From Lagopus muta (Eukaryota > Chordata > Aves > Galliformes > Phasianidae), in the NCBI RefSeq assembly GCF_023343835.1, contig NC_064444.1, forward strand, positions 9,973,219-10,037,218: a DNA stretch of 64,000 nt, given 5' to 3'. Below, one piece after another: positions 31,101-63,472 of this stretch. The position numbers were made by a program, and so were the translations under genes. Every line of letters begins with the position of its first letter. Position 1 is the first letter of the stretch. The notes below the pieces were generated by a model. It was not told the DNA's origin. It searched no databases and saw only the letters and a list, made by a program, of their open reading frames with translations.

Positions 31101-34100
31101 AAATTTTCACTGCATTGGCTATTTTGAAGTAAAAGTATCCATAAAGAGCAAAGATGTGAGATGGCTTATGTTTTTCTAAATTCCTCACTGCTACCTTACA
31201 CTTATTTTGTGTAGGGTTTGTGGTTTGTTCTTTGATAAGTTGTTTCCTTGCACTTCTGAATATGGAGACCATATGTTAAAGGTGCCACACCTGGAGAATG
31301 TGAAGTTCTACTGGTGTTGGGGAAGGAATGGCACTGACTTTGGAATTTACTTACCTAATGAAAAGCAGAAGTGATTTGTTAACTGATCTGGTTAAGCATA
31401 CCTTTTAAAGAACACTGAGGACGGGCAGGATGAAAGATCTACCACTGTGAACATGAAGCACCCATGCAGTTTGTGAGAGGAGTAAAAACAAATACTGCTG
31501 TGTAAGCCACGTTTGAGGTAGTTTTCTTGACTCCCCATGGAGTCTGTGCTCTGGAACAACGATACTTGCACATGGGAAAAAAAAATAAATTAGTTATTAT
31601 ATGTATTACCTAGCAGTATTATCTAGTGCAGTAAAATAGGTACATAGTGTCTGCAGGCCGTGAGTATTTGTGAAATGTAGCTCATAAAGTATTAACACCC
31701 AGTGTCTGTATGTAACAGCATCCTAACAGCTATATAAAAAGCACTGGGCCTTACTTCCATCTCAACCTACACACCTTTTGTCCCTTTTTAATAACATGAA
31801 CACTTTGCCAGGAATTTCTATATAGGGAGCTATCATACTGAAAGAAAAAGAGAAAAAAACTTGAAAAATACTGCAAAGGTGCTCTGATTCACCAGCTGTA
31901 AAGTCTTCAGTGAGGTTCTGTAGTTGAAGTTCTTGAAATGTCTGTCCAGCTGCTTGGTGTTTTACTTAGTAAGTATTTGATTGCATTTTGGTCAATAGAA
32001 AGTAACAGAATTAATTATTTTGTTTTGTGTACTCCTCAACAGAAATTTGCAAGGGTCCCTGCTAATGGCCTTGGTGTAAATGTATCAAATCAAGATGGTT
32101 TTACACCATTGCATATGGCTGCACTGCATGGACACTCTGACCTCGTCTCTCTCTTGTTGAAACATGGAGCCAGTATCAGTGCCAAGAATGCAGAACATGC
32201 AGTGCCTCTTCATTTAGCCTGCCAGAAAGGTCACTCCCAGGTAATGGAGCCTCTAATTGCAAGCTATTTAACACAGAGCCACCAGCAAAAAACTCTTCTG
32301 TGAAATTAGCAACAAGATAAACCAGTTAACAGTTAAAATTAATTTAATGATGCTCAAGGCTGAGGTGATGGTTAGTTGGTTTGTGTGGCCTAAATTACGG
32401 AAACTAGTATGATAAGAATTAGTGCTTTTCATTGTCATTTGTTTGGCAAAACTGAGACTTGTTTTCTTCAATCTTCTTGCTTCCTTGCATCCCTTTTTCA
32501 TTCTCTATTTACAGATCTTTGCATGTAAAGAAATGTGCATGATTGCGGTTAGGTAGTATCTTAAATTGAAAAGTTATTTCTTTCAACAGGTGGTAGAATG
32601 TCTAATGAATTATAGTGCTAAACAAAATAAAAAGGATGCATATGGAAATACTCCTTTAATTTATGCATGCTTGAATGGTCACTATGAGACTACTGCCTTG
32701 TTGTTACAGGTAAGATCACTGAAAACAGTCTTCAGAATACCACTTTTATGTGTTACTGGTGCTTGGTTAGGACTCAGATTAGTATTACTATTTAAGCTTT
32801 TCTCCATTAAAATTACTCAGAAAAAAAAAAAAGTGTTTTTTCCTCTTCCTCTTTTCACAGATTTTGATGAGATAAATGTTACTTTGCGATTGTACAGCTA
32901 ACTGCTTTTAAGGAACTTCTCTGTGGCACATGGCAGATTTTCTTGCTTGTGATTGTATCAAATTTTTTTGTTTTTTAGCATTTTGCATGTTGTTGTTTAG
33001 TTTAAGTCTCCTTTAGACTTGGCCTATCTAGAAGATACACACAAAAAATGAAATGAGTTTCTCTATGAAATTGTGGCTATGAGAGAGTAGGAAATAATAA
33101 TATGACCAGGTGGCTTATTGTTGAACTGGTGATTGCTAGCATATGCTTTTTGGTTTTGTATACAGCTACAAGGCTGTTGTTGCTTTGTTCTCGTTGCTAC
33201 ATAGAAAATGAAAGGGGAGAGAAGCACAATAATAACGTGCTATCTCAATTTTAGGCTGCTTTTTATTATCTCTGATTTTATTTTGCTGTCCAGCATGGAG
33301 CTTCTGTTAACCTTTCTAATGCCAAAGGAAATACAGCACTGCATGAGGCTGTGATAGGGAAGAATGAAGCCCTGGTGGACTTGTTGCTGCAGAATGGTGC
33401 GATGACACACATACAGAATGAAAGGAACTGTACCCCTGCAGACTGTGCTGAGCCGGTGAGTGCAGAAAGTTTGCTTCCAGCATTCCGATTTTCTAAAGTT
33501 CCATAGGTGTAATGTAAAGCAAATGTAACTGCTTGTCACAGCAGCATTTTTAGCCCTTCATTGCCGAGACGTCTGTACTCAAAAGTTACATGCGATGTAA
33601 GACTAAGATGCCTGTTTATTGTGCCATGACTTGTGATATGTGAAAGCTGTAGTGCTTTTGAAATAAAAATCCTAGACAAAAAGGATGAGCCTAGGAAGAG
33701 TGAAAGCACATGTATGAAAATGTGAATAGTGGCAGAGAGAGCAGAAGAAATGCAGGCTGTAGGAAAACAAACACCCTGTTCTAGTCAGTTACCCTGCTAG
33801 CAGTTTTGTTTCACCACCATGTTTTGCCCTTCATGCTTTTTGATATCTTTTATCTTGTCGTCATCAACTTTCATTTTATTAATACCAGGTTATAAGGAAT
33901 TATTCTCTAAATGATTCCTATCTTATTGTACTTAAATAGCTTCTGACGTGTAGAATAGCAGCCACAAAATTCTGTACTGCATCAATTTCAGTATACATAT
34001 TATCAATCTAATCATAGGTGAACTTACCCATCAGTGGTATAATTTGAAATAGACAGAGACTGCAAAAGCATTTTGTTGCATTGCACCCTGTGGAACACAG

Positions 34101-42732: not shown

Positions 42733-45135
42733 TTAATAATCATCCTCTTCATCTGAATCCAGTACTTTCCTTCTGTTGAACTAAAATGAAATACAAGGTG
42801 ACAGTAAATCCAACACAGAAAAGCCTTTCCAACTCCACCCATCTGACAATCTATTACTGGGAAGCAACGTTTCACCCCATCACAACCTTCCAGTCCCCAC
42901 CTGGCAAAATGGGAGAGATCAAAAGCACAGGTCTGTCTCAACACAACACTGCTATCCCAGTGATAACAGCTGCAAATTAGACTATTCCTAAGGATGTAAC
43001 CCAATGCTTATTTATTAGTGTGGGTGAGAGAAGTGATGGTAAATACAAAGGAAAGTTCTGTGCTGAACTGAAATAGAGCACTACATGCAGCTTTCCTGCT
43101 TGAGCTTGTAACTGTATTATATTACATACATATATAATCAATTATAAAAATAATAATAAACTATATTTAGGAAACAAAACTTACCTTTACTGTTGTTTTC
43201 TTTTCTGTTTGCTGACTCACTTTTTCAAGTATTTCTATCAAACCTTGTTCTGATACCTAGAAAGTAGAAGCTTAGTATCAAACAAACAAAACACATTTTC
43301 CTTTGTGAAAGGTGTCTGACTGGTGAATTATACCATAGTAGTTAGAAGTGTTCCTAAGTGCCCTTTTCAGTTATTTAATTCTATGAATATTAACAACATT
43401 AAATATTTTTGAGGGAGTTAAGTTTGAAAATGAATATATGCAAGAAAATATAGGGGAAAAAAAAGCAAGACATAACTCACCTTTCCAGGTAGCTGTCCAA
43501 ATCTTGCCATCTGTATAAGATAATTCTCTACTGCTTTTGCTTTGTCTGGTTTCACAAGTGCCAAATTGCTTACTGCAACAAAGAAGACTCTGTTCAGTTT
43601 GTTTTAAACACACTCTGAATATCTTCAGTCACTTTTTAGATACTAAAGTAGGAAACTGTCCTCTTTGTGCCAGGATGATGGAATAAACTGAAGAAGGGAT
43701 TTTGACAGAGGTGAAAGAAAAAGCTGCATTTCTTACTTTTAAATATTTGCTCTTTATTAGATTAACTAACATTGACTCACTACAGTTCTTACTATTAACT
43801 CATGGAAGAACTGGATTAATGTCTTTCAGATGTCAGTTGACCACTCCCCTCACTCATATCACCAGTTGAAAAGCTGAACTAGTTTTTCCCTCAACAATTT
43901 TTTTCAGTGTGGCCTCTATACAGGCATGTATGTTCTCAATGTGAGAGGTGAGAATTCTTGATTTAAAAGCTTCTTGGATACTTACATCTGGCACGAGCTG
44001 CTTGATCAAGAACTTGAGCTAAAATTGTATTTCTTATTTCCGCTTCCCTGTAATGGAGATTAGATACATTAAAAGGGAGATTTCAAACACCTGAAACAAT
44101 GTGCATGAAAACAAGAAAGTTTACAGAAGAGTTTCCATTTGTATAACTGAAAAGAACCCTACACTTATGTATGATTTCTTCTGTCGCATTTCTGCCTTGG
44201 GCAGCTGTACACACCAGCAGTAAAGTACTACATTAGGTGACAACATCTAGAGTAGTAAGGAGACGTAAGGAGACCTTACTACATTCATTTATTCATTACA
44301 TCTTGCCAGAAAAACCAAACCACACTAGCTGCTGTCACGATTCTGTGATCAGTTCCATTTAGTTCCAAAAGCAGTGTGTGTTTGATCAGGCACCAAGTCC
44401 ATACACCTGCAGGACACAACTAAACTTCATTATGTATTTAGCAGTTTTCAGTAAGTCTTCGTATCCTGGGAGTTTTGGTTTGTGTGTTTCAGTTAATACA
44501 AGCCCTAAGCTCTCACCCCAACTTCCTTCAAAAGTCTCTACTTATTTTTTTCCATTTTCTACTTTGGAAAGTACAGAATTGCTTTGGTTGTTGTTTTTTT
44601 TCCCCTTGTACTTAAATCTTTCACGTTTCAGTGTCTTTGCTGATGGTTTCTTCCAACACCTGAAGCTCAGCTGAGAAACTTAATATTAAAAAGAAAGGAG
44701 GGTTGAAGACGATAAGACGAGACTCTGGTGACAGTCAGCAGTTGCTATCGGTACCTCTGCTTTGCCTCCTGTTGCGACGGATCAGCAGAAGTATCCTAAA
44801 GAACGAGACGAGAATAAAAAACTGTAATAATCCAAAAACGTCACTGAGAGGACAGGAAGGTTAAATATTTTACTAGAGATTAACGCGACCCAACGCTGCG
44901 GGGCTCCATCCCGAGCATCGCTGCCCCGGCAGCAACCAGGCCGAGCAGCCTCCGTATCGCAGCTCCGCCAGCCCGGCCCCGCCCGCAGGTCGCCCCGGGC
45001 GCCGCCAAGCCTCCCGCTGCACACAGGCGATGACGCTCCCCAACGCTCGTGCGGGGCCCCGCGCCTTACCCCGTGCTTGGCCTGCAGCTCGGCCAGGCGC
45101 TGCTGCCGAAGAGCCGCGAGCTCCTCGTCCGCCAT
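42733..45135 (-). CDS. PDCD5: PDCD5 (programmed cell death 5, TFAR19 family), 6 coding exons
   Basis: PDCD5 is a small, mostly cytosolic helical protein that moves to the nucleus in apoptosis. It is reported to bind the TIP60 acetyltransferase and the TRiC chaperonin, and its family has a conserved three-helix core and DNA-binding archaeal relatives. Coding exons on the minus strand: 45135-45070, 44795-44755, 44047-43986, 43572-43481, 43256-43185, 42780-42733. They are GT-AG, phase-consistent and total 381 nt (126 residues plus TAA; human has 125). The sequence starts [22 protein letters not shown], continues with [21 protein letters not shown] and [14 protein letters not shown], and ends [15 protein letters not shown]. 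The acidic SDEEDDY tail keeps the Ser recalled as a CK2 target in human. It is intact and convergent with ANKRD27. Confidence 0.97.
42781..44754 (-). other. PDCD5 introns 2-5
   Basis: The introns are 42781-43184, 43257-43480, 43573-43985 and 44048-44754. They are short and AT-rich; no snoRNA or other embedded gene recognised. The first intron (44796-45069) is inside the CpG island. Confidence 0.85.
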
Positions 45136-48149: not shown

Positions 48150-49640
48150 CTGCAGGCGCGCGGCAAAGCCCGCTCCGTGCGTGCGGCGCGACGGCCGGAC
48201 GGCACCGCGGGTTGCGCAGGGGCTCGGATCGCGGCAGGACCGCGCCGTCCGGGTGAAGCTGCAGCACGAACGGGATAAGCGGGACGTGCGGCGGCACCTC
48301 AGGGCTCCGCGCCCGCAGCGTCCTCCCCTCGGCGCGGCCCGCGGGGATTGGCCGGGCGCGCCCCTCTCCCTCGGGCGGCCGTTCCCCGCCCCGCCGCGGC
48401 CCCGCCCCGTCCGCCCATTCCCCGCGCCGCTCGGCGCAGCGGCGGACCGGCCCAGAGCCGGCATGGGGCCCCGCGGAGCCGGGCTGGCGGCCGGCTGCCT
48501 GCTGCTGTGTTGCGCGCTGGCCGCGTCCCGCGTCGCCCCGCGGAGGAGGAGGCCGTCGTTCGGCGGACAGGTGGCAGAGAACCGGCCGGCGGGCACTCGC
48601 GTGCAAGGGCTGAGCATCCCGCTGACCCGGCTGGGGCACGAGCCCTGGTGCGCCGACGTGCGGGGTCGCCGCTGGCACCTGCAGCTCCTGGGCGAGGGCC
48701 ACGCTCACTTCCAGGCGGCGCTGCACGCCCGCTCGGGCCGCGTCTGGCTGCGCACTCGCCGCCCGCTGGACCGCGAGGCGCGGCCGCTCTACGCGCTCCG
48801 CCTGGGTTTGTGCTGCCGGCTCTGCGCGCCGCCCGGAGCCGCCCCCGCCGAGCTGGCCGCGCTCACCGTCCGCGTGCTGGACGACAACGACAACGCGCCG
48901 CGCTTCGTGGGGGGGCCGCCCGGCGGCGTCGCGCGGCTCCGCGTGGAGGAGACGTTGGCGCTGCGCTCCGCCGTGTGGCACGCGCGCGCCGAGGACGCGG
49001 ACGCGGGGCCCAACGCGGAGCTGCGTTACTTCGCCCGCCCGAGCAGCGCGCACTTCTTCGTGGTGCCGCGCAGCGGGCGCGTGGTGTTGGTGCGCTCCCT
49101 GCTGCACCTGCGCGCGCCCATCCCGCTGCGCCTCTACGCCCGGGACCGCGGGCGGCCGCCGCGCCTCAGCGCGCCCCTGGAACTGGAGGTGCTGCCGCAG
49201 CCCCGCCGCCTCCCGCCGCCCCGCGCCCTCCTCCGCCGCCGCCGGGCTCCGCTGCCCTCCGCCGTTCCCCTGGCGCTGGCGGTGCCCGAGGACGCCCGGC
49301 CTGGCACCTTCCTGGCCGCGCTGCCGCCCGCGCCCTTCGCCGCCGCGTGGTTCGAGCTCGTGTCCCCGCCCGCCGAGCGATCGCCGCTGCGCGTGGAGCG
49401 GGACGGCGGCGCCGTGACCGTCGCTGGGCCCCTGGACCGGGAGGCGGCGGCCGCGTGGGACGTCCTCGTCCGCGTCCGGCAGCGCGCAGGTGTGTGCCCG
49501 GGGCCGGGCGGGGCGGGTGGGCTCCGCGATGTGCCTTTGGTCTTTTTGCTTTGCCGGTAGTCGGGTCGCCGCGACAGGGGCGGTGCGATGCTCCCCGCGG
49601 TGAGGGACTCGTGCTGCGGCGGCTAAAGCTCGGAGTCATT
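48150..49640 (+). promoter_or_regulatory. CpG island: promoter and first exon of the cadherin gene
   Basis: Dense CpG sequence begins abruptly near 48150 and ends near 49640, covering the first coding exon. Upstream of the ATG at 48463 are a reverse CCAAT box (ATTGG, 48347-48351) and two identical GC boxes (CCCCGCCCCG, 48384-48393 and 48400-48409). This layout fits a TATA-less promoter initiating at about 48370-48450. Confidence 0.7.
48463..49489 (+). other. Cadherin exon 1: signal peptide, EC1, EC2, most of EC3
   Basis: One 1,027-nt exon encodes residues 1-342. EC1 runs from about 33 (FGGQVAENRPAGTRVQG) to the LDDNDNAPRF linker. EC2 runs to about 244 and contains a DAD-type motif (EDADAGPNAELRYF). 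It is followed by a Pro/Arg-rich stretch (about 245-268) instead of a DxNDN linker. EC3 starts near LALAVPEDARPGTF and is finished by exon 2. Codons are extremely G/C-biased. A Cys cluster (LCCRLCAPP) sits late in EC1. Long minus-strand open frames here are by-products of GC content. Confidence 0.85.
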
Positions 49641-52600
49641 AATGAGCGGCACAAAAAACTGTGTGGGACCTTAACTCGGCATCCAGAGAGCGGCCTATCA
49701 TTTATCTCTGCCTGCTTTACAACTGTTTTGTTGGGTTTTGTTTTGTTTTGTTTTTCCATTGCCTTCTGTGATATTTTTCACCTATCAGAGCACAGTTTAG
49801 CTCCACTATATTTGTAAGTTAACGGACGGTGATCATTTTTGTCCATTCACATCTTTTGTTACTTTGTGCAGCCTGTGGCTGTGGCGATGTTGTGTAGATG
49901 TGGAGTGCCATGAGAAACTCTCTTGTATGTCCCTAACGTGGGTGTTCAGGGAAAAGGATTGCACTGGCACGGAGTGGTTGGTCGGTGAGATTTCATCATG
50001 GAAGGGTTTAGTGGGGTATTGCGTGCTGTGATTTCAGAGAACTTGGATTCTCAGGGGCTTAACGGCTCCGAGCAAGTCCAGGAGCTGGCAGCAGTGCATT
50101 CTGCCGTGTCTGCAGGGCTCTGGTTAGTGCTGACAGCCACAGAGATGAGATTCCTCTCCCTGTGGAGCCAACCCTTTCACTGGGTCCTGGGAAGCAGCAG
50201 TCAGAACTGGGCCTTGCCTGACTCGTCAGAGTGCTGCTGCAGCAGCTGGATGCCAACACTGGCTCTGGCTGTGCACGGTGCTCAGCTCTGACTGCCAACC
50301 AGGAGCTGATAGATCCCTTGCCGGGGCACAGATGCTTTCTGTGCCCTGCGTGCTCAGCCCCGAGAGAGGCCGTGTGATGGGGCTGTTATTGCTCAGAGCA
50401 GTGACAGTATCTATTGGGTCAATCTGAGGGTGCTTCTGGGATTTTCAGCTGCACTGTCACATAGCTCAAGTTTCAGCTCTTTGTCGATGTTGCAGCTGCC
50501 TCTATCAGGATTCAGACGATGTTGCAGCAATGGGAGCCAGCCTTGCCCCCGGTTACTGTGATTCTCACCTTTGTGATGGCTTTCACTCTTATCTAGTCTG
50601 AGTGGGAAAGCCTAAGATGGCTTGCAGCTGAACTTGTCACACTGCCGTGTTGCAGATTGCTTTCTTGAAGCAAGGCCTGATAACCCAGTTAAAAAGCCAC
50701 AGCCAGCTTGAAATTATTTTTAGCTTTTCTTTTAATTCTCTGTCATGTAGTTTTAGAAAATAGCTTGGTAGTGTTTTCCACTAGTTTGATGTATTACTGC
50801 CAGTAGGACCAAGTAGATAATCATCTTTATGTACAGCTTGATTCGGGCTCTCGGAGACCAGGTAGAGGGCAATTAACAGTGCACAGTGTTACGTTCTTTG
50901 GATGCTGGTGGTTGTAGGTTTGTTTCAGGGAGCCTACATTTTAAAATATGACTTTGTTAGTACTGTTGTTTTAATCAGAGGAAGGTTATTAGTGACTTAG
51001 TACCTTCAGAACTCTTCAAGTTGCTGAATACTCGCTTTCTAATGTAATAGTTTAAGCACGGAGGCGTTTGAGACAGGCTTGAGAAGCTGTGCCTGATTCC
51101 TGAAGGCTGGCTGGCAGAGCTGGGTATTCTGGGAAGGCAGCTGCTGTAGGGCTCTCAGTGGTGGGCAGCCCTGCCTGCAGCCTCTGCCCTGTGCCTTGGG
51201 GGTTGTGCTGCAGCTCCAGCCTGGCCCCAGCTCCACTAGGGTGCATAATTCCGTGCTTGGCCATGCGCCTTGCTGACCCTGTACTGCCTTGCTAGCTGGC
51301 TCCCTGGCTTGACCTCAGCCATGCCTTGTCACCACAGACCTGTCTGGCAACAGCTGAGCTGCTGGGTGACCCAGAGTACATCATAGGCCCTGCTTTGCTC
51401 TTCCTGCTCGCTGACATTGAGGTCCCTGCCTGCCTTGCAGTCGCTCTGGACTCCACATTCGTCTTTGACAGGCAGAGCAGCCCCTTGCATGCACATGTGC
51501 ATTTCTATTCAATACTTTAGTTACCCTTAATACCGTGGGAACTTAAATTGCTTTTCTGGACAGTGGACAAAGATGTAATCTTAACAGGGCTGAAGTAACT
51601 AATTTGAAATTATTTAGATAGGCTCCAAGAGTATTTACGTTTTCCAAAAGTTACAAATATGTTGTTAAAACCGAAATCAATGGGAAACACTAGGAGAGAC
51701 TTGTACATTAGTTTGTACACCAGATTCTAGACTGAACTCCTAAATTTCAGGGCTTGACTTCCTGAAGACATTTTCTGTCTCCTGGTCCTTGACAAGCACG
51801 TTCCTCTGGTTGACCCCTATGGCCATCCAACCTGGAGCTCTATTCTTCACTGATCCATTTCTGGAAGAAGTGTTGGTTATGCTTATGTTTTCTGTAGCAT
51901 TTTGTTTCTTATTTCATTTATTAGGGCACAGATAATTTATATAGACCTCCCAGGAGCATAATACTGTTCTAAGTTTTTGTCCAGTGAACAGAAAGTAAAG
52001 TGTCTTAGATTCTTACAATCATAGAGCTAACATTTAATTTGAGAAGGAGCCAATATTATTCTGTTAATGCTTAGGGGAGGTGCATGAAAGATCCCATCTC
52101 ACTAATCCTCGCCATCACAAGCTCCTTTGACCTTACTTTATCCATGGGCATTAGCTGGGTAATCCCGTCTTTCATTTTTTCTTATCAGAAGATTTACTGG
52201 GGGTGATGTTGGGCCTGCCTTCCAAATAGTTAACAGCAGTCAGTTGTGTTTGTCCTGTTCAAATCAACACAAATTGTCTTGTCTAAATCAATGTATAGAG
52301 TGGAAATACAAACATCAGTGATGCCTGTATTTTAAGCCTGGGAGCTTTTTGTCCTTGGCTCATCTGTTCTAATTTTATCTGAGACCTCAGTTCCCTCTGA
52401 GCTGTACTGCTTCTCTGTGGACCATCGCTGGTTGGTATTTGGTCTTCTGTGATTCTTATTGCCTCTTTTATGGATTACAGTCACTTCAACAGTTATGCAT
52501 CACTCTGAGCTTCAGTTGAAGCCATGTATTTTCAGGCAGATGTGGTTCTTTAAACTGCAGTAGATTTCACATTATGAAGTTGAAAGAAAGTGGACATTCT

Positions 52601-55600
52601 GTGTGTGTTTGGGGCAGCTGTGGGCGTTGACAATTTGGGGATCTTACTTGTGTTAGAAAGGAGTATCTCACAGAGCTTTAAAGCACCATCTTGGTATTTA
52701 TTCAGTCCAAAAAACATTACGTAGAGTCTATGCCAAGCAGTTGGATTAAAAATATCTTTGTAAGTCTTCTGGGACTTGCGCACCAAAGCTGTTAGATCTC
52801 TGTCTGTTATCTCAAACATTTAGTTTCTACCAGAATAATAGGCTTTTTTCTTTTCTTTTCTTTTTTTTAAAGATCTAGCTGAATTCCAGTATATAACTGT
52901 TAATCTGATGGAAGCAGTGAATTACAGAATTATAGAACATATGGGTAGAATCTTTCTTAAAGCTGATTTATAACATAACAAGTTGGATATTGATCCTGTG
53001 TCTGACATGGCAATTATGTTAAACTTTCTTTGATTCTCAAACAGTTATATTTTAGGATTTTTTTGTTTTCTTTTTTCTCCTTCCAACTGTCTTGCTGTAA
53101 AACAAATTCATCATTTAGAAGGCTGTTTCCTTTTGGTTCACCTAACAATGAACAGCATTGAGACATTCCTTATTCTGATAAGGTGTCGTAATTCCTTAAA
53201 TAAGGAAATCTGTTTGTTTCAGAAGTTTAATCTTATTTATCTAAAGAAATTCTTTAAATGGGGATTTCCCTCCCCCTCCCAAAATCCTAAGCAACGTTTC
53301 AGGAGATCTTCTTGTTTCACACTTACTGTGGCTGCTTCCTGTGTATCTAAGTTCTCTCAGTACAAAGCTTTTTGTAGTCACCATTTAAGACCTGTTATTT
53401 GTTATCTAAGGATGTTTGCTGCATTATTTATATACAGTCACTTATTTCACTGCAGGGCACGCTTGGATTTTTGTCTGTTGCTGTTGGTAGATGCATGCTG
53501 CACTGGGAATCCCTGGTGACGTGGTTATCACTTTACTCTTTTAATTGGTAATTAATAGATCCACCCTGCCACAATCTTGTAGCTCTTTACTTTTGTTTTT
53601 TGGTTCATTTGTTCTACGGTTAATGTGTAGAAGTTGGAAAAACTTTAAACGCAAAGGGAAAAATATTACTTGAGTAGTTAGTTTGCTGACCCATGTGGAT
53701 GAGAATGTCATAGTGATATTGACTTAAAGGCTTGCAAGACTTTTAACTCCCTTATAAAAATTTTAAAGTAAACTGAAATGACCCAAAAATGCCAGAGCAA
53801 CCTGGCTTCTCACCCGGTGTTCTTTAATCATGATAATATATTGCCTTTCTCCTCGGTAAATTCAAGGCATGTAGCGTATTTGTCTGCAATTGTGGAGACA
53901 TGTTCACTCGAGTAAATATTCTATATTGACAGATTTAGAAATCAGAATGTCTGCTGTTGTCAGTTTTATCAATTACACCGTGGCAGGGAAACCCACATTT
54001 TTAATGAATATGATAATTTTATTTTCAAATCTCGTCTTCCAGATGCATCCATTGGATTCTTGAGAGAAAAGACAGTCAGAATCCTAATGAAATCAGAAGT
54101 CTGAAAGTATGCCACATTTCACAGATTGACAGCATCTTTTGTAATTTGACATGGTGAAGGGAGATGGGTTTGGAGGCAAATCCAACCTATGCTGTTTGGA
54201 ATTGCAATCAACCTATTTCAACACACGATTTTGAGGCTTGGTTCAGACAGTGCTGCGCATCAGAAGTTATGTTTAACTGTGGTTAAGCACTAATGCCTTC
54301 CTGTCCTTCCCGCCCCTCTCACAATTCAGGTTGGTGGAAGAATGTGTATTCCTTTTCTTTGAAGGTTAAAAGATGGGTTGTCACATATCAGTATATTTCC
54401 CGTGAGCACAAACTTCTGTGAGCTATCATGTTCTGTTACCCAATGCAGTCTGAGTTCAGTGTGTGTAAGGTGCAATATGAAATACTTTCTGTGCCCATCC
54501 TTTTTCAGTTGCAGACACACGTGAAAAATAAGCAATTTTAGATGGGTGTGATGAGGGATCAGCAGCGGATTAGTAAGATTGATTTGGGGATAGGGAATGA
54601 ATCTCAGCTCTGTGGTGTTTGTCAGTAATGTTGAGATAAAAAGGAAGTCATTCCAACAGGAGGGAATGTCAGAATGAGCTGCCCTAAGAAGGATTTTTGG
54701 TGAGAGATGAATTGACTCTAATAGGGATTTAAGCAGCTAAAGCAGGAAAAGCTTCTGGTCTGGAGTTTATAATGTTAGTTTTGTTTTTCTCTGTGAACTT
54801 TAAAGAGGGGGGGGAGAAGGCTGAGTTTTGATGCTGCAAAGGACTGGTAAGTGGTGTTTGCAAATGTGTGTAAAGAACAGTCTGCTCATGTAACCTGTTT
54901 TCATTGTATTGAGGAGAAAAGAACGGGGGAAAACACTTACTGGTCAAATGAAGTTGGTTTGATCCATTTGAATATGCAGCATTGTTTTCTGTACAGCTTT
55001 TAAAAATGCTAGTTTTTAATGTGAGGTGTTCCACTTGTCACTGTGACTGTTACTGTCATCCTATGCAACAAGAACTGCCTTGAATTTTGTCTTGTGGCTG
55101 TGTTTGTGAGAGAGCAATTATTTACATTTTCTGTTATCTGAAGTTAGGGAGGGATATATGTCAAGTGCAAAATCTGCATGTGTGTCTACAAGATAACTAG
55201 CAGTACTATTCTTTTAGGAGGAGTTTTTTTGAAGAACGAAATTGTGTAAGATATCTACAGTGTGCCTGGCTTGAAGATCAAGTATCTGGTGTTTAATATT
55301 GAGAGATTCCTATTGGTGGTGTGTTACAGCACTGTTTGGCAGTTCTTTTCAAGGCGATGAGGCCTATGACAGTTCCTCATGTAGGATCTCTGTGCAAGGC
55401 CACTGAGTGCAGTTGCAGGCAGTGCCACCGTGCTGTCACCACTCCATGTTCTGAATTGATAATTTAAGTAGAACCCGTTTGTGTGTCTGTAGGACTTAAC
55501 CCAAATACGCAGAGGATTATCAGTTTTAAGCTGTTTCTGCTAAGATTTTGAGTGGAATATAATGTATTATTTCTTCCATGATGTAGTACTTATATACTAC

Positions 55601-58600
55601 TAATAAACAACTATTAATCATAATGTACTACTGCAGATGTAACAAGCTAGTGCTGGTATTGACACATTAGTGTAGTTAATAGAGCTGCTGGCTGCGTGCT
55701 GGGGATGGTGGTGTCTGTTTTGGAGGGTAGCAGCGAGACATCTTAAACTGTCAGAGAGCTGTTGTTCTAGAATTCCCTTCCTTCCACTGTTGTGGAATCA
55801 GAAATCATTTCCATAAATGACAGTGTTTAATTCTCTCCTGGGGAAAAAATGAATTTCACATACCTCATTAAAGATTAGTTGGAGATCTGGTTTTAGCTCC
55901 ACTCTGCAGGAAAAACAGCTGTTCTGTAGGAAAGCAACCATGTTGGTTGCAAAAGATGCCAGTTGTAAGAGGCCACATTTTGTAGGATATATCTCTTGAC
56001 AATTAAAACAAATGAGAAGCTTTTTAACTATTTGCGTCAGTTGTTGGAATGAGGAATTATATTTTACACAAATCACATTCATGTTCTTATACTTGGAAAT
56101 CGTTAATGTCTGCTATAAACACATACGTTCCACGTTATTGTCCATGCCAGTCTCTTCATCACATCCTTTGTCCTCTGACAAGCCCTTGTCTGGTCGTGCT
56201 TCACTGGACACCCTGATGTTGTTTCTACAAGTTGTCAGGTCACATTTGTAGGTCTCAGTGCAGACAAGTGTAGTCCTGTGCAGTTCTGTTACAGTTCTTG
56301 CTTTGATATATGGTATGCAGTCAAGGGGAAACTTACAGAAATTTTCCTCCAGATTGCCTTTATCTGAAAGGGAAATAATCTCTAATTTTGATGATTTATT
56401 TAGTACTTCTGCTTGAGAATCAGATTGCTTATGATTGATGGAAGAAGATAACGTACTGGTGAGACCTGCAAGGCCACGTGCAGTGGATACACAGACAGGT
56501 CAAGAGAGACACTTACACCTGTCTCTTTGATTATATGCAGCACAGTTCGTGCTGACTATCCTAATGAGATTGTGAAGTATTCACATGTTTCAGAGGTACC
56601 CAACATATTGCTGAAAGCTTTGGTCTTGCCCAGATGACAAATGACATTAAGGTCTATTGACTACTAAAAGCAGGTATTTGGGGAAACATTTGCAAGTCCT
56701 TTTAGTTTTTGATTACTAAAGCTTATTGAGTCATTTGAGGCTGAATCTCACTCTTGATGCTGTTGTCCATAGTTTCCTTACAAGAGGTGTATCTCATCTA
56801 TAATTGTGTATTAGTAGCTGACATATTAATGTTCAGTGAACTCACAGTAAGTGACAAGAGGAGTTTGTATCCAGGTGTACTTCCTCAGCTGGAACCAGCT
56901 GCTCTTCAATCACGATGTTACGTTTTGGTGAATAAATGTGTGCAGGTTCAGAAGGATAAGCAGAATTTGAACGTGAGTTTGCGGGCTGATTAGGATGTTG
57001 ATTTCCAGATTCTAGGAAGATAAAATCAGTTACCTTTCTACTCCTGACAGTGTTACTGAGATGGCACTCAAACTCCTGGTAGATCTTTCTGTTACAGAGG
57101 AAGATTTTTGAAGGTTCTTAACTCTGATTTAGTGCTTGCTATTGAAGCCTGCAGTATCCCCAGGCAAACCAAGGTAATAGTGGGTATTTATAAACTCATG
57201 ACAACTTCTGTAAGGCCTGTTCCTTTGTGAAAAGTTGGACAATTTTGACACTAGCTTTTCCCCTTTGCATTTAGGTGGTTTGGGTTTTTTTTGTTTTGTT
57301 TTGTTTTGTTTTTAAACTAAGATCATCCAAGAATTCGGGCAGACATTGATCTTCTGATTTGGCACTTTTCATTTGGAGCTCTTCTCATTCTGGGTCATGC
57401 TGGGCTTAGGCACAGACCAGCACTGAGCACATTCCCTCCCCTACATTTTCTTCTGGTTTCCAGGACTTATTGTCCTGGGACTTCATGTACTGTGTCTCTG
57501 GTTTCATTTCCTAGGTTAGAATAGGGAAAGAATAACCATGCTGTTGTATTGTACATCCAGGTTCTGGAATGCTCTTTTGAGGTTCCTTCTGGCTTCTTTT
57601 TTAATGTGTGTTTTAACAGAACCTGCAAGCAGAGAAGAAGGTATGTTTGTAATGAGGCAATTTCTGTTTGTTGGAAACTTGGGCTTCACATGCAGTGTTG
57701 TTCCAGACTGATACTTTTCTTTTTTGTCACTTTTTCAATGATGCTTCCCTACTGTTTATTGCACAATCAGGAGCTCTTCTGTGCTCACTGATTGGTGTAA
57801 TAGCAAAAACAAAAAAATGAATTTTTTCTCTCAACTTATAATTTTTAATTAGCTTTTTAAATTTTTTTTTAATTAACTTTTAATTTAAAATTTTGTTGAT
57901 TTCTGGAGATTGGAATTGTTGCATTCTCTGTTGGCTATATAATTATATTTTTTACTTTAATCTTAAATAGAAGTGAAAACGGTATTACAACTTCAGTGAT
58001 CTTTTTATTCAGGAAATTCATTACTTAAGGTAGATTAATTAGGATCTTTCTGACAACAAATACTTAATTATTTTAAAAATTCAGAATTGCTGTAATCATT
58101 GAATATACAAAACATACCTTTATTTTTTTTTCTAGTAGCATACTTTCAGAAAACACACATTCAAACTTGTAAAATGTAACGATGTGTGATCTTTCCTAAG
58201 AAGAAATACTGTTAGGAAGTAATGCAAGTCACTCTGATCTTGCAGTTTGGCAGCAGTTGTGCTTATTTTTTTCCCCATTATGTCTATATGTGGGTGACTG
58301 TAGGAGAAGAGCCAAAAGGTTTTTCTGGATCGCATGCCAACAATATTGCAGACATTATATCCTCAGGATACGTGTTTGTTACTCTGCATGCTGCTGTGTA
58401 GCTAAGTATTTCTTCGTTTCTGTTTGACTGCTAGGGAAAGATTGGTATTTGTTGCACTTAACACTTACTGTGATGGACGTGAATGACAACGTACCTGAAT
58501 GGGCCATGGAACCCTTCCCATTCTTGGCTGTGGTTTCTCCCCAAGCTACAGAGGGAACTGAAGTATATAAGCTGCTGGCTGTGGATGCGGATGAAGGGGT

Positions 58601-61600
58601 CAATGGAACTGTAGAATATTTTCTCCTGGAAGGTAAATTTAAACCTCGCTTCTGCGTTTGTATTAAGCTTCAGTATTGTGACATCTTTGTCTTCTTACTT
58701 TTAGTGGAAAACCTTCCTTTCCTACTTAAAAAAAAGTTTACAAGCCTTTGGTGTTGAGGGTGAGAAAGATAAACTTGTAGAGAGTGTGTGGACAGACTGG
58801 TCAGTTTGGAAGCATGTTCTCTTTGCAAAGTTGGGTTCCTGACCAGATTGTTGCCTGTGAGGGCAGTGGACACGGGAGTAGCACTGCAGTACCACGGGCC
58901 TTGGGCACAGGAGCAGCAGTGGTAGTCATAGACAGCACCTTTCTGGTTTGGTTGGAAGAAGCTGACGTTCCTTTTTCCTTGTGGAAGTTGTGCTTCTGGT
59001 CAGTTTCAAAGAAATTCTTAAGGATCTGGGCACCTTAGCTTTGCAAAGCTGCTGCAGATTCACTCATAATTTTCTTAGCTGGGGCACTTAAAAGAAACTT
59101 CAGTTCAGAGTTGTGTAAGCAGAAAGGCAGTGGGAATACCACTCCAGAGGCAGTCTGTTCCTCTTGACCAGAGCATGCCCTGGCAGGGTATTTTCTTCAA
59201 AGGGATATTTCAGCATCAAATAACAGCAAAATATTGGAGGGTAAAGAAAGGCTGGCGTCTAACAAAATAAAATACGGTTTAGAAATGTAATAATCCCTGT
59301 AATTAGTGAGTTCAAAACAAACTTTTTATATTTTTTCCATGAATATTAATTCTAAGACAAAACCAACTCAGGAATTGATTCCCTGTTCTCAGTATTAATC
59401 AAATAAAAATGTTCGTTCTTGCTGACAGCAGTTTGTGACTCTTCTTCCTAGGTGGAGAAGGCAGATTTCAGGTTGAGAGGGACACGGGCTGGATCAAAAC
59501 AACAGGCTTGCCATTAGTGAGGAATAAGGAGTATTTGCTGACCGTGCTGGCAGCAGATAAACTTGGAAGCAAAGGGTCTCCAGCCTCTGTTTCTGTAATT
59601 GCTGGCTTTCGACCACCACAGTTCACCAACACATCATACCTGGTTTATGTTCCTGAAAGTATGGCAGAAAGAAAATCGTAAGTAACAGGAAAAAGTAGTG
59701 TGGTGATATTACGTTGTTAGTTCAACATGTGCTTGATCTCCCCAAAGCCTCACTATTGTCTGTGAATACTAGATACTGTGAATATTAATTTAGATATTTT
59801 AATTGAAGTGATTACATTCATTTGATGTATTTTAGTCACTGTTTTACACCGAACAGTGGTGATGAATAAGCGTGATTTCTTGATTTTAAACAATGAAGAA
59901 AGTATTAGCAGAATTGTCTCTTAGTTTTCAAACAAAATGCAGAATTCAAATTAAAAGCATTACATCGCAAAGGAAGCTGTCTTGGCATGAAAGTGTGTGT
60001 CAGTTCTATGTGTCAGCATTTGGAAAAGTAGATTCTCCACCAAATGAAATGTGGAAAAAACAAGGGGCTGTCTGTGCTGTCTTCATCAATCATGGTGACA
60101 AACCGAGTGAAAATGGAGATGCTGCAAAACTTGCCATTTTACTTCTCTATCCGTTGGCTAACTATGTGCATCCAAATAGCACAGAAAGTGTTAGTAATGG
60201 AGGCCCACCTGAATGCTTAGTTCCTTCTTTCACAGATTCTTTTGGTATCAGGGCAAACATTTTCCTTCTGCAGTTGAATTGAGAATACTTTTTTTTGCCA
60301 GTAAACATCTCCCTTGTGTGACCTTTCAACTTAGTCAGCTCTGTTACTATCTGTAGTACTGTATTGTACTGTTCAGTCTACAACAGTTATACGGTGTCTG
60401 AGGTTTGTCAAGATTAAAAAAAAATCATCAGTTGTTAATTGCAAATAATAATGTTTTTCTTTAAAACTGCAGTAAAGTTATTTAGCACATGCATAAAAGA
60501 AATTAAAGAGGTGTGTAATGCCAGAATACCTAACAGGTATCTGCTGTTCAATGAGGATGAAAAATAATAGAATTCTTTGTAACTCTTTTTTACCACTGTT
60601 TAAAGATAGGCTTGCACACCTGTTATAATGATAGGAGATTAATTGCTTTGTCAATTTGCATAATATCCAAAAGGAATTCAGTATTTGGTTGGTTATGGTT
60701 ATTACTATGCCATAAGAGGTTTTAATGTGAATGGTGTGCCCAGTGAAAGTGCTTTTCTGTTGTGTGCTAACCAGAAGCAGTCCTGAAAATCACTGTGGAA
60801 TCCTGAAGTTTTTGTATCTAAATTAGACCAACTGCAGGAAAACAGAGCTGCTGTCATGTGCTGTGTTTTGTAGGGCTGGGTTTCACAAGCGTAGGTTGAT
60901 TTAAGACTGCTGCTGACAAGAAGCATTACCAAACCTTTCCTTTGGTCCAGCATTAGCTCTAATATGTTAGCTGAGCTGGCAGGCTGATCCGAGGAAAGAC
61001 AGAATGAAAAAGCAGAGAGTTTTCGGCTGGGTTGTTAGATGTGCTCACAGCTGAGCCTTGTGATTGTGCTGACAGGAGGAGAGGAGAGGTGGCATGAGCA
61101 TGCAGCTGGGGTGGAGAGAGGGAAGGAGAGCAAAGTAATTCCTATTGGCAGGAATATGGTCTTGTGTTGGCTTAAGCTGGCTGTGAGACAACAGAAAGAA
61201 GAATAAAGCAAGAAAGTGGCCTACAGCAACCTTTTGCAGTGTTTCAGAGTTGCACCTGAGGGAATTTACAAGGCAGCAGCATGAAAAAAGGAAAGGACAG
61301 AAGTGTTCAGACAAATTGAGCTTTGTCTTTCTGAATGAAGTTGTCAGTGGGTCTCAGGTGTTGCAGGGCTCTTCTGGGAGATGGAATCCTTTCTCCTAAG
61401 AGATTTCGCAATAAGGCAATGAACATTTGATGAATTAGTGTTCTGCTTTAAACCCTGTAACAATTACTATTTTATAATGTATTTCTTCATGCTGCAACTA
61501 CATTTCCCACTTGAAGACTTCAAGCACATCTATGGGAAAAAGTGTCAGATAAGCTAAAACCTTGTGGTTCTGCATGCACTGCTACAGGCACGTGGCCAGT

Positions 61601-62016
61601 GGCTGCCTTTTCCCTGCTGGCAGGTGTCTAAAACATTAGAGCAGTATGACTGCAGCAGCAAATTTACCGTGCTATCATTATTAAAAGGAATATTTTGCAT
61701 TTTATGTTTAGGTTTTCCTGCCTTAGAATCATCACCACCTGATAAGAAAGGTAGAGTAGGAAAATTCAGTTGCTGCAAAAATGAAGTCCTCTGTTTCTTT
61801 GTTTTTAATCCTTACTGTGCTCAGCTTGCAAGAGTCTTATCTTTTTCTGTTTAATCTCAAGATAATAGAAATACTGTGTTACAAAATGTTTGAATTTGGA
61901 GTTCAGGTACAGGTGTCAGCACGTATTGCTCTAATCAGATCTACGGGATTGCAGCTGGTTTTGATGTGTAGTATTTTTTGCTGTATTTTTCATTGCTGAA
62001 TTATTACATGCTTAAG

Positions 62017-62051
<35 letters not shown>

Positions 62052-63472
62052 GCAGCTTTCTTAGAGTCACTGCTGTATCATATCAGAACAAATCCCTGAG
62101 CTACACTTTGCCAACCAATCCAAGTGGTCTGTTCAGCATTGATCAGGCAACAGGGGATATCAGCTTAACGCGGAGCGTGGATTATGAGAGTGACCAACGC
62201 CAGTACCTTCTTTTGGTCAGAGCAGAGGAAAATGAACAATTCAGTGGTGCAGCTGAGGTAGGCTTTTATTTCCGGTGTTCTTTGTGTCTGTATGTTTTTG
62301 TGTTCTTCTTGAGTCCTTCCCAATCTCTGTACAGATTCCCTATTGATGTTTAAAGTCTTTTTTATCTCTGGGTAGGTGAGGAGGACTGGTTTAACTCCTG
62401 ATAGACATCCTGAGAAAGCTGTTTTTTAGGGACCAGTCATGCCATTCCATTGTACATCATAGGCTTTACCCGAAAAGGTGTGGTGGTAGGTGCAGCCAAG
62501 GAAAATGTGAGGCTTTGTTTTACTCCTAAATTGATGCATATTTGAAAATATTCCAATTTATGACAAAACAAAATGGGAATAAAATTTTGTTTTGAGAACA
62601 CTAAGTGAAATAGTAAAGAGAGGAGGTAATGAAAACTCATAGCAAAAGCTGACAGTTCATGCTGTATCAGAAAGCTGTTTGACAGCAAATATATTTCTAA
62701 ATACAGTTATGACTGTTGTTTGAGTTCAAGATTCTCTGAGTTTGGAAATCCGTGTAATATCACACTTCTTCCTGCTGCAGCACGTCAAGTGTACACCACC
62801 AAAGGAGCAGGAGATAGAATTGTTAGGAACAAGTTTGAGGACACAAAGTATTTTAGTGTGACAAACAGTGGCTGTGGCACACCAGAGACCAGTAGTTTCC
62901 ATTGACACGTTTAGATACTACAAGATGAAGAGTGATAGAATATGACTTGAAAGAAGATTCTATTATGATTTTACAAATATATTTAGCCTAAAGTCAGTTT
63001 TACGTGCACCTGTAGAATTTTTGATGTTACAAATAATAGAAATATTAGGAGGTAATGCAAAAGGATGCTTTGGAAGCAGACAGTCTATTTCCATTTGAGT
63101 TAATGGTAGGAAATAATCAGTGGAGATGAAAATATGAATGGAAATGTTGCTGTGGGGGCTAGGACTTGATTATTCCAAATGTAGAATTTAATATCTAAGC
63201 AGTTCTCAGCAGGAAAAGAGCAATATGAAAAAAAAGAGTTTTCCTATGTGCTACAGCTTCCAGAGATCTCAGCAAATTCTTCCATCCAGTATTTCTAGAG
63301 CAATGGAGTTGTTACCTTGTTTCACTTGGATGCCATTTAACGCTCTCTCTTTCCACTGAGGTTTTGATTGTAATCACTGATGTGAACGATTGTGCTCCAG
63401 AATTCCATCAGTCCATTTACAGCAAAGTCAGCGTTCCTGAAACAGTTACTATGACTACTGCACTTCTACAAG
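48463..63472 (+). CDS. Large cadherin, 5' part (5 coding exons, runs off the window); probable type III / DN-cadherin-like
   Basis: This is a cell-surface calcium-dependent adhesion protein. Exons: 48463-49489, 58435-58632, 59452-59677, 62056-62257, 63361-63472 (GTTAGT donor follows). All are GT-AG with phases 1, 1, 2, 0 and 1, giving 588 residues so far. The ATG has a strong Kozak context (G at -3 and +4), is the first in-frame ATG, and opens a signal peptide (about residues 1-21, LAAGCLLLCCALAA). Calcium-linker motifs are LDDNDNAPRF (139-148), MDVNDNVPEW (356-365) and TDVNDCAPEF (557-566); N-glycosylation sequons NGT, NTS and NKS occur in exons 2-4. The EC2/EC3 and EC4/EC5 linkers lack DxNDN. 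Exons 2-5 (EGTEVYKLLAVDADEG, VDYESDQRQYLLLV) resemble nonchordate-type classic cadherins, including chicken Hz-cadherin, as I remember them. Dachsous/Fat-like or another large cadherin is the alternative. The downstream exons, transmembrane segment and tail are outside the window. Confidence 0.85.
49490..58434 (+). other. Cadherin intron 1 (8.9 kb)
   Basis: A long first intron, typical of large cadherin genes and a likely place for enhancers. Recognised contents are the CpG-island edge to 49640, (TTTTG)n at 49735 and 57283, and a C/T- and CTGCC-rich block at about 51060-51500 of unknown origin. The 128-codon open frame at 53133-53519 looks like chance. Confidence 0.75.
57283..57315. repeat. 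(TTTTG)n microsatellite
   Basis: About four TTTTG units with flanking T lie in cadherin intron 1. A similar short (TTTTG)n is at 49735-49756, and another at 23918-23937. Confidence 0.85.
58435..58632 (+). other. Cadherin exon 2: end of EC3, start of EC4
   Basis: The acceptor CTGCTAG precedes the exon. It encodes KDWYLLHLTLTVMDVNDN, completing EC3 with an intact calcium linker, then VSPQATEGTEVYKLLAVDAD, the start of EC4 with the DAD motif and an NGT sequon. It is phase 1 at both ends (198 nt), so it is skippable in frame. Confidence 0.92.
58633..59451 (+). other. Cadherin intron 2
   Basis: 0.8 kb; no recognised element. Confidence 0.85.
59452..59677 (+). other. Cadherin exon 3: end of EC4, start of EC5
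   Basis: It encodes GGEGRFQVERDTGWIKTTG and LVRNKEYLLTVLAADKLG, a standard cadherin strand pattern with the LxxD/AAD motif. The EC4 end is VSVIAGFRPPQF, without the usual DxNDN. It then begins EC5 with TNTSYLVYVPESMAERKS (NTS sequon). The donor is GTAAGT. Confidence 0.92.
59678..62055 (+). other. Cadherin intron 3
   Basis: 2.4 kb. It holds a 129-codon open frame (59893-60282) without recognisable similarity, a purine-rich and less AT-rich block at 60960-61330, and the terminal 27-T tract. Confidence 0.8.
62021..62047 (+). repeat. 27-T run acting as polypyrimidine tract of cadherin exon 4
   Basis: Twenty-seven T are followed by AATTGCAG and exon 4, so the run serves as the acceptor's pyrimidine tract. 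Confidence 0.95.
62056..62257 (+). other. Cadherin exon 4: most of EC5
   Basis: It encodes FLRVTAVSYQNKSLSYTL, NPSGLFSIDQATGDISLTR and SVDYESDQRQYLLLVRAEE, the hydrophobic-strand and LDYE-type pattern of a cadherin repeat, with an NKS sequon. Its acceptor follows a 27-T run (62021-62047) directly upstream of AATTGCAG. Confidence 0.92.
62258..63360 (+). other. Cadherin intron 4
   Basis: 1.1 kb AT-rich intron; nothing recognised. Confidence 0.85.
63361..63472 (+). other. Cadherin exon 5: end of EC5, start of EC6
   Basis: The acceptor is TTCCACTGAG. It encodes VLIVITDVNDCAPEF then HQSIYSKVSVPETVTMTTAL, closing EC5 with a calcium linker whose last Asn is Cys (DVNDC). It ends in phase 1 at a GTTAGT donor and must continue beyond the window. 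Confidence 0.9.

Follow-up and report, generated by a model that had tools for sequence, protein, structure and literature searches.

A second type III classic cadherin gene in Lagopus muta, very probably an ohnologue of Hz-cadherin

Introduction

Which cadherin gene lies beside PDCD5 in a galliform bird, and how is it related to chicken Hz-cadherin, a retinal cadherin that was reportedly described by Tanabe et al. in 2004? The question is raised by a stretch of 64,000 nucleotides from Lagopus muta (contig NC_064444.1, positions 9,973,219 to 10,037,218 of the forward strand; C15:9973219-10037218 in our contig numbering), called the window throughout. An earlier note on this DNA had proposed that the window holds the start of a nonchordate-type (type III) cadherin gene, Hz-cadherin or a close relative. 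That birds have a type III cadherin, and that mammals lost theirs, is already known. Our analysis indicates that the gene whose 5' end lies in the window is very probably a second type III classic cadherin of vertebrates (type III-A, at the PDCD5-DPY19L3 locus), an ohnologue of Hz-cadherin (type III-B, at the DPY19L4-INTS8 locus). The literature that we searched contained only one land-vertebrate type III cadherin, and the excerpts of the open cadherin literature made no mention of a land vertebrate with two copies.

Results

The cadherin gene begins in the window and runs on the forward strand. Exons 1 to 5 of 33 lie at window positions 48463-63472 and encode 588 of 2864 residues; the remaining 28 exons run past the window, and the gene ends at the window-equivalent position 92890, which is 28,890 bases beyond it. 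Exon 1 (48463-49489) opens with the ATG at 48463 and encodes a signal peptide (recognised by eye), the extracellular cadherin (EC) domains EC1 and EC2, a furin-like RRRR string at residues 258-261 and most of EC3. The end of EC3, the EC3/EC4 linker DVNDNVP and the start of EC4 follow in exon 2 (58435-58632). Exon 3 (59452-59677) encodes EC4, the EC4/EC5 linker IAGFRPPQF, which has no calcium motif, and the start of EC5. EC5 continues in exon 4 (62056-62257), and exon 5 (63361-63472) encodes the EC5/EC6 linker DVNDCAP and the start of EC6. The intact, phase-consistent cadherin start of 588 residues described in the earlier note was thus recovered as five exons with GT-AG introns.

The exon chain was built by a custom model of codon usage and splice sites, applied to the window and the next 80 kb, and was then refined by hand. 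The thresholds of the model had been loosened, since a strict first pass recovered few exons. Overall, 26 of the 33 exons were unchanged by the refinement, and the seven altered ones lie in the region from the NC domain to the second EGF-like unit, beyond the window. All 32 introns are GT-AG, and their phases agree across the whole chain. The spliced frame contains a single stop, the terminal one, compared with 128 and 222 stops in the other two frames; the frame is therefore not a product of chance. The gene is known here from genomic sequence, which would be in keeping with an intact-looking yet silent relic heading for loss. Given a frame of 8.6 kb without an internal stop, 32 regular introns and the retention of functional motifs, such a relic is highly improbable.

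The family of the gene was assigned from the predicted domains of its protein. In Pfam, 13 Cadherin stretches were significant individually, and the count by inter-domain linkers is 17, so that four ECs rest on the linkers and on the alignment of both copies described below. The EC chain is followed by an NC domain (residues 1949-2088), detected by the model of the NC region of DE-cadherin (PF24811 Ig_Shg, E 3.3e-18). EGF-like (CE) units alternate with two laminin-G (LG) domains: two Laminin_G_2 stretches and two EGF stretches were reported by Pfam, and the third CE unit was recognised by eye only. The single membrane span corresponds to a hydropathy peak at residues 2661-2683, and no segment between residues 41 and 2599 exceeds a hydropathy of 1.6. 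The tail matches Pfam PF01049 (CADH_Y-type_LIR, E 4.5e-17), and it aligns, at the juxtamembrane EEGGGE and in the C-terminal region, with the E-cadherin of 1i7w, which we take to be the complex with beta-catenin. The tail thus carries predicted p120- and beta-catenin-binding motifs. All the parts that the earlier note had suggested looking for downstream of the window, namely EGF, laminin-G, a membrane span and a catenin-type tail, are present. Judged by this set of predicted domains, the window gene is a type III ("nonchordate-type") classic cadherin. An excerpt on this class gives it 14 to 17 EC repeats (PMC5473995). A type IV cadherin such as DE-cadherin, with seven ECs and a single LG domain, was rejected, since the window protein has 17 ECs and two LG domains.

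The comparison of the EC chain with solved structures bears on whether the gene could be an atypical cadherin instead. For a query of EC4-EC8, the best single collinear stretch was the Neural-cadherin chain 3ubh (173 bits), presumably the Drosophila N-cadherin chain of Jin 2012, against 142 bits for protocadherin-15; CELSR1 (8vy2) reached a larger sum of 284.9 bits over five stretches, none above 98. For EC3-EC5 the result is less clear and runs against the N-cadherin-like assignment: protocadherin-15 reached 111 bits in one stretch, 3ubh 96 bits, and CELSR1 again had the largest sum, 185 (184.9) bits. Pfam EC models named after FAT4 and CELSR2 match as well. The piece with the NC, EGF and LG domains matched neurexin, CELSR1, agrin, Notch and other EGF or LG units, and none of the 59 listed best structure stretches reached its NC part (query 1-127). 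The EC chain alone therefore points only moderately to N-cadherin. The family is settled because the NC domain and a catenin-type tail are present, a combination that the class of Fat, Dachsous, CDH23 and CELSR does not have, and that class was rejected. Despite the summed scores, the probability that the window gene is an atypical cadherin of the Fat, Dachsous, CELSR, PCDH15 or CDH23 type is close to nil. A best match to Dachsous, Fat or CDH23, which the earlier note had named as evidence to the contrary, was not obtained among the solved structures, where 3ubh gave the best single stretch for EC4-EC8.

We then asked whether the genome holds further genes of this class. Profile searches covered the 1.027-Gb genome in 165 contigs. 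The classic-cadherin tail model gave 21 matches, with 12 on C3, 7 on C15 and 2 on C19. One tail match on C3, together with a nearby cadherin frame of 551 residues, led to a second type III cadherin gene at about C3:23190326-23232544 on the minus strand, between a DPY19-like gene and INTS8. It has 33 exons and encodes 2815 residues without an internal stop. Compared with the window gene, 22 of the 33 exons have the same length, and 1440 of 2784 aligned residues (52%) are identical. The NC model (Ig_Shg) had four matches genome-wide, two per locus with one of each pair below the cut-off, and these two loci were the only ones. The same genome thus holds a second intact type III cadherin, an apparent sister of the window gene, exon for exon.

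An initial automatic model of the second copy was discarded; it had 34 exons, of which two were false (one came from the reverse transcriptase of a retroelement), and eight of the final 33 had other boundaries in it or were missing. For the final model, phases and approximate exon lengths were constrained to those of the window gene, so that the phase identity of the two genes is partly by construction; a homology-guided model free of the phase constraint gave 25 of the 33 final exons identically. The similarity is uneven along the protein: 108 of 271 residues (40%) are identical in EC1-EC3, versus 783 of 1291 (61%) in EC6-EC17. The base composition is also uneven, with a G+C content of 79% in exon 1 (EC1-EC3) versus 44% in exons 2-33 of the window gene, and 82% versus 49% in the second copy.

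The linkers between the ECs permit a closer comparison with the Drosophila protein. The calcium motif D-x-N-D is found in 11 of the 17 linkers of the window gene and, inside the window, in three of five EC linkers (EC1/EC2, EC3/EC4 and EC5/EC6). The other two, EC2/EC3 (LPQPRRLPPP) and EC4/EC5, lack it, so the calcium linkers are not all intact as the earlier note had stated. By alignment, the EC4/EC5 linker IAGFRPPQF corresponds to GGKRAPQF of 3ubh, which by spacing is the EC2-EC3 linker of that chain; the offset of two in EC numbering between bird and Drosophila equals the Drosophila prodomain. The EC9/EC10 linker TRAKNQPPQW falls at the position of the Drosophila EC7-EC8 linker. In an excerpt on Drosophila N-cadherin, the EC2-EC3 linker is described as calcium-free and the EC7-EC8 linker is predicted to be partly so; the protein is processed at the junction of its second and third ECs, and its NC domain is cut before SPYYK (PMC8325961). 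In the window gene, RRRR lies in the EC2/EC3 junction and GSAYYR begins at residue 2018 in the NC domain. Since exon 1 contains other furin-like arginine-rich strings (a loose pattern has nine matches in the first 700 residues), the furin site is a prediction based on position. The C3 copy has D-x-N-D in 9 of 17 linkers; it lacks the motif at EC1/EC2 and EC3/EC4, and its NC site, GPPYYK, has no serine, whereas the window gene has all of these. By eye, the NC-domain exon 21 with the G-S string (window-equivalent 78929-79158) resembles a self-cleaving fold of the SEA type; the Pfam matches of the window protein included no SEA family.

Overall, the window gene shares with Drosophila N-cadherin (DN-cadherin, or CadN; PMC8325961, in excerpt) two prodomain ECs plus 15 others, a predicted furin site at the EC2/EC3 junction, a calcium-free linker at the same EC boundary, the NC cleavage motif, the series CE-LG-CE-LG-CE and a catenin-binding tail. 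It differs in that EC1-EC3 are strongly diverged, and processing and function are only predicted for the bird protein. Compared by description, Pn-cadherin of the fish Pundamilia has the same organisation, and an excerpt reports that EC4-EC17 are recognisable in the fish gene and EC1-EC3 too divergent (PMC5473995), as in the bird copies. Sea urchin G-cadherin, also compared by its description in an excerpt, has the type III organisation as well (PMC10734073). By contrast, the vertebrate type I/II classic cadherins (E- and N-cadherin) have the catenin-binding tail in common with the window gene, but only five ECs and no NC, EGF or laminin-G domains.

Which of the two copies, then, is Hz-cadherin? 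Both are bird type III cadherins like Hz-cadherin, which has the nonchordate-specific domain complex, and we set them apart by map position rather than by the Hz-cadherin sequence. We take C3 (94.6 Mb) to correspond to GGA2 and C15 (19.3 Mb) to GGA11. In an excerpt of a paper on another bird, orthologues of cHz-cadherin (AAQ82055.1) are placed on GGA2/TGU2 (PMC3648530). The window gene lies on C15, between PDCD5 and a DPY19-like gene, and the other copy is on C3. Under this contig match, Hz-cadherin on GGA2 fits the C3 locus; Hz-cadherin is therefore most likely the C3 sister and not the window gene. Membership of the same family is compatible with the reverse assignment, in which Hz-cadherin would be the window gene and the C3 copy the undescribed one; the map positions make this very unlikely. 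The wording of the earlier note therefore most likely holds for a close relative, of type III, and not for Hz-cadherin itself. The precursor of cHz-cadherin (NP_001001754) is listed, in an excerpt, among the genes changed in chicken trachea, and the published copy is therefore not confined to the retina (PMC5424241).

The surroundings of the two genes indicate how the pair arose. DPY19-like genes flank both type III cadherins. A third DPY19-like gene lies on C10 with an adjacent T-box gene, and a T-box search found none on C3. Presumably TBX20 adjoins DPY19L1. The arrangement on C10 is thus the one expected at DPY19L1, so that the C3 gene is DPY19L4 by elimination, and its assignment to DPY19L1/2 was dropped. 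Before searching, we had named the pairs CCNE1/CCNE2, PLEKHF1/PLEKHF2 and ESRP1/ESRP2; the search took in the first two. Cyclin matches were found at C3:23159088-23160722 and C15:11405648-11408856 (5 of 29 rows). The best two of 30 FYVE matches were at C3:23074975 and C15:11488734, with open frames of 250 and 310 residues. These cyclin and FYVE genes lie 30 and 115 kb from the C3 cadherin, and 1.3-1.4 Mb from the window gene on C15. The three best matches of an Iroquois-type homeobox search were on C15 and C3 too, in line with a paralogon, and were not used because other KN-class genes match as well. PLEKHF1 and CCNE1 are listed together on human 19q in an excerpt (PMC2851616), and another excerpt reports that DPY19L3 and DPY19L4 arose before the fish split and that birds have three DPY19L genes (PMC1475853).

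The two type III copies are therefore most likely ohnologues from the early vertebrate genome duplications. A later segmental duplication would agree with the distance of the CCNE- and PLEKHF-like genes on C15 and with the different placement of the cadherin relative to its DPY19-like gene, which is tail-to-tail on C15 and downstream on the same strand on C3. Because of this difference, a rearrangement is needed. Nevertheless, the copies are only 52% identical, C3 and C15 share pairs of DPY19-, CCNE- and PLEKHF-like genes, and DPY19L3 and DPY19L4 are older than the fish split according to that excerpt (PMC1475853); a later duplication is very unlikely.

The neighbours in the window match a human gene order. 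The head-to-head neighbour of the cadherin is a minus-strand exon at 43475-43570 with the sole match found in the genome to Pfam dsDNA_bind (PF01984), which we take to be PDCD5. Plus-strand exons at 31914-33503 have Pfam ankyrin repeats and presumably belong to an ANKRD27-like gene; a putative N-terminal ORF guessed for it had no Pfam match. Past the cadherin lies the DPY19-like gene (window-equivalent 99234-118644, minus strand), for which worm dpy-19 was the only match among solved structures, and then a C2H2 zinc-finger gene, presumably ZNF507-like, with Pfam matches below the cut-off. The order on the window side is thus ankyrin-repeat gene, PDCD5, cadherin, DPY19-like gene and C2H2 zinc-finger gene. 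An excerpted list of human 19q, which makes no claim to completeness, reads ZNF507, DPY19L3, PDCD5, ANKRD27, RGS9BP, with no cadherin (PMC4763861); a second one, equally without such a claim, gives ZNF507, DPY19L3, PDCD5 and ANKRD27 in another order (PMC2851616). The human gene order is that of the window side minus the cadherin, in line with the absence from the mammalian site suggested by the earlier note, for human and as far as such a list is complete. On C3, the DPY19-like gene, the cadherin and INTS8 share the minus strand in a span of about 70 kb, and INTS8 aligns over 45 residues with 7cun_H, Integrator complex subunit 8.

Discussion

Several observations weigh against our interpretation of the window gene as a second type III cadherin and ohnologue of Hz-cadherin, beside the EC3-EC5 scores, the differing orientations and the coverage of two of the three named gene pairs described above. 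The acceptors of exons 26 and 27 have splice scores below zero. Between the copies, 13 of 33 exons show at most 44% identity, and EC1-EC3 are divergent domains that are only predicted. The identification of Hz-cadherin with the C3 copy is based on one passage on another bird and a presumed contig match. The absence from mammals is based on one gene list and a published statement, seen in excerpt, that type III cadherins were lost there; the loss of both copies is inferred.

A mechanism can be proposed by analogy with Drosophila N-cadherin. Furin would cleave the precursor at the RRRR string that separates EC2 from EC3, which would remove a prodomain of two ECs, and a further cut would fall at G-S (residues 2018-2019) in the NC domain. 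The mature ectodomain of 15 ECs, folded at the calcium-free hinges EC4/EC5 and EC9/EC10, may then mediate calcium-dependent homophilic binding to the opposite cell, and the tail could exert force on actin via p120, beta-catenin and alpha-catenin. Judging from Hz-cadherin and DN-cadherin, the protein probably enables particular neurons, or other non-epithelial cells, to recognise one another. Insect-style folded adhesion in a vertebrate can be tested directly on the hinge and processing sites, which are conserved. Since the second copy at the window locus is intact and less altered, studies confined to Hz-cadherin may miss a redundant partner, and mammals may have lost two ancient adhesion genes, not one, from two sites.

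Both copies are linked to type I/II cadherin genes, which has a bearing on the origin of E- and N-cadherin. This linkage is suggestive only; if a whole block was duplicated, the two type III copies do not count as independent cases. Tentatively, and with more doubt than confidence, one can imagine that a type III cadherin shared an early vertebrate chromosome with the type I/II founders and that the block was doubled; the type I/II genes would be a local, shortened offshoot of type III, and mammals would have dropped both originals from two sites. All 21 classic-cadherin tail matches found sit on 3 of the 165 contigs, and C3 and C15, two of these, also hold the type III genes. In public annotation, the window gene may well appear with an automatically assigned name.

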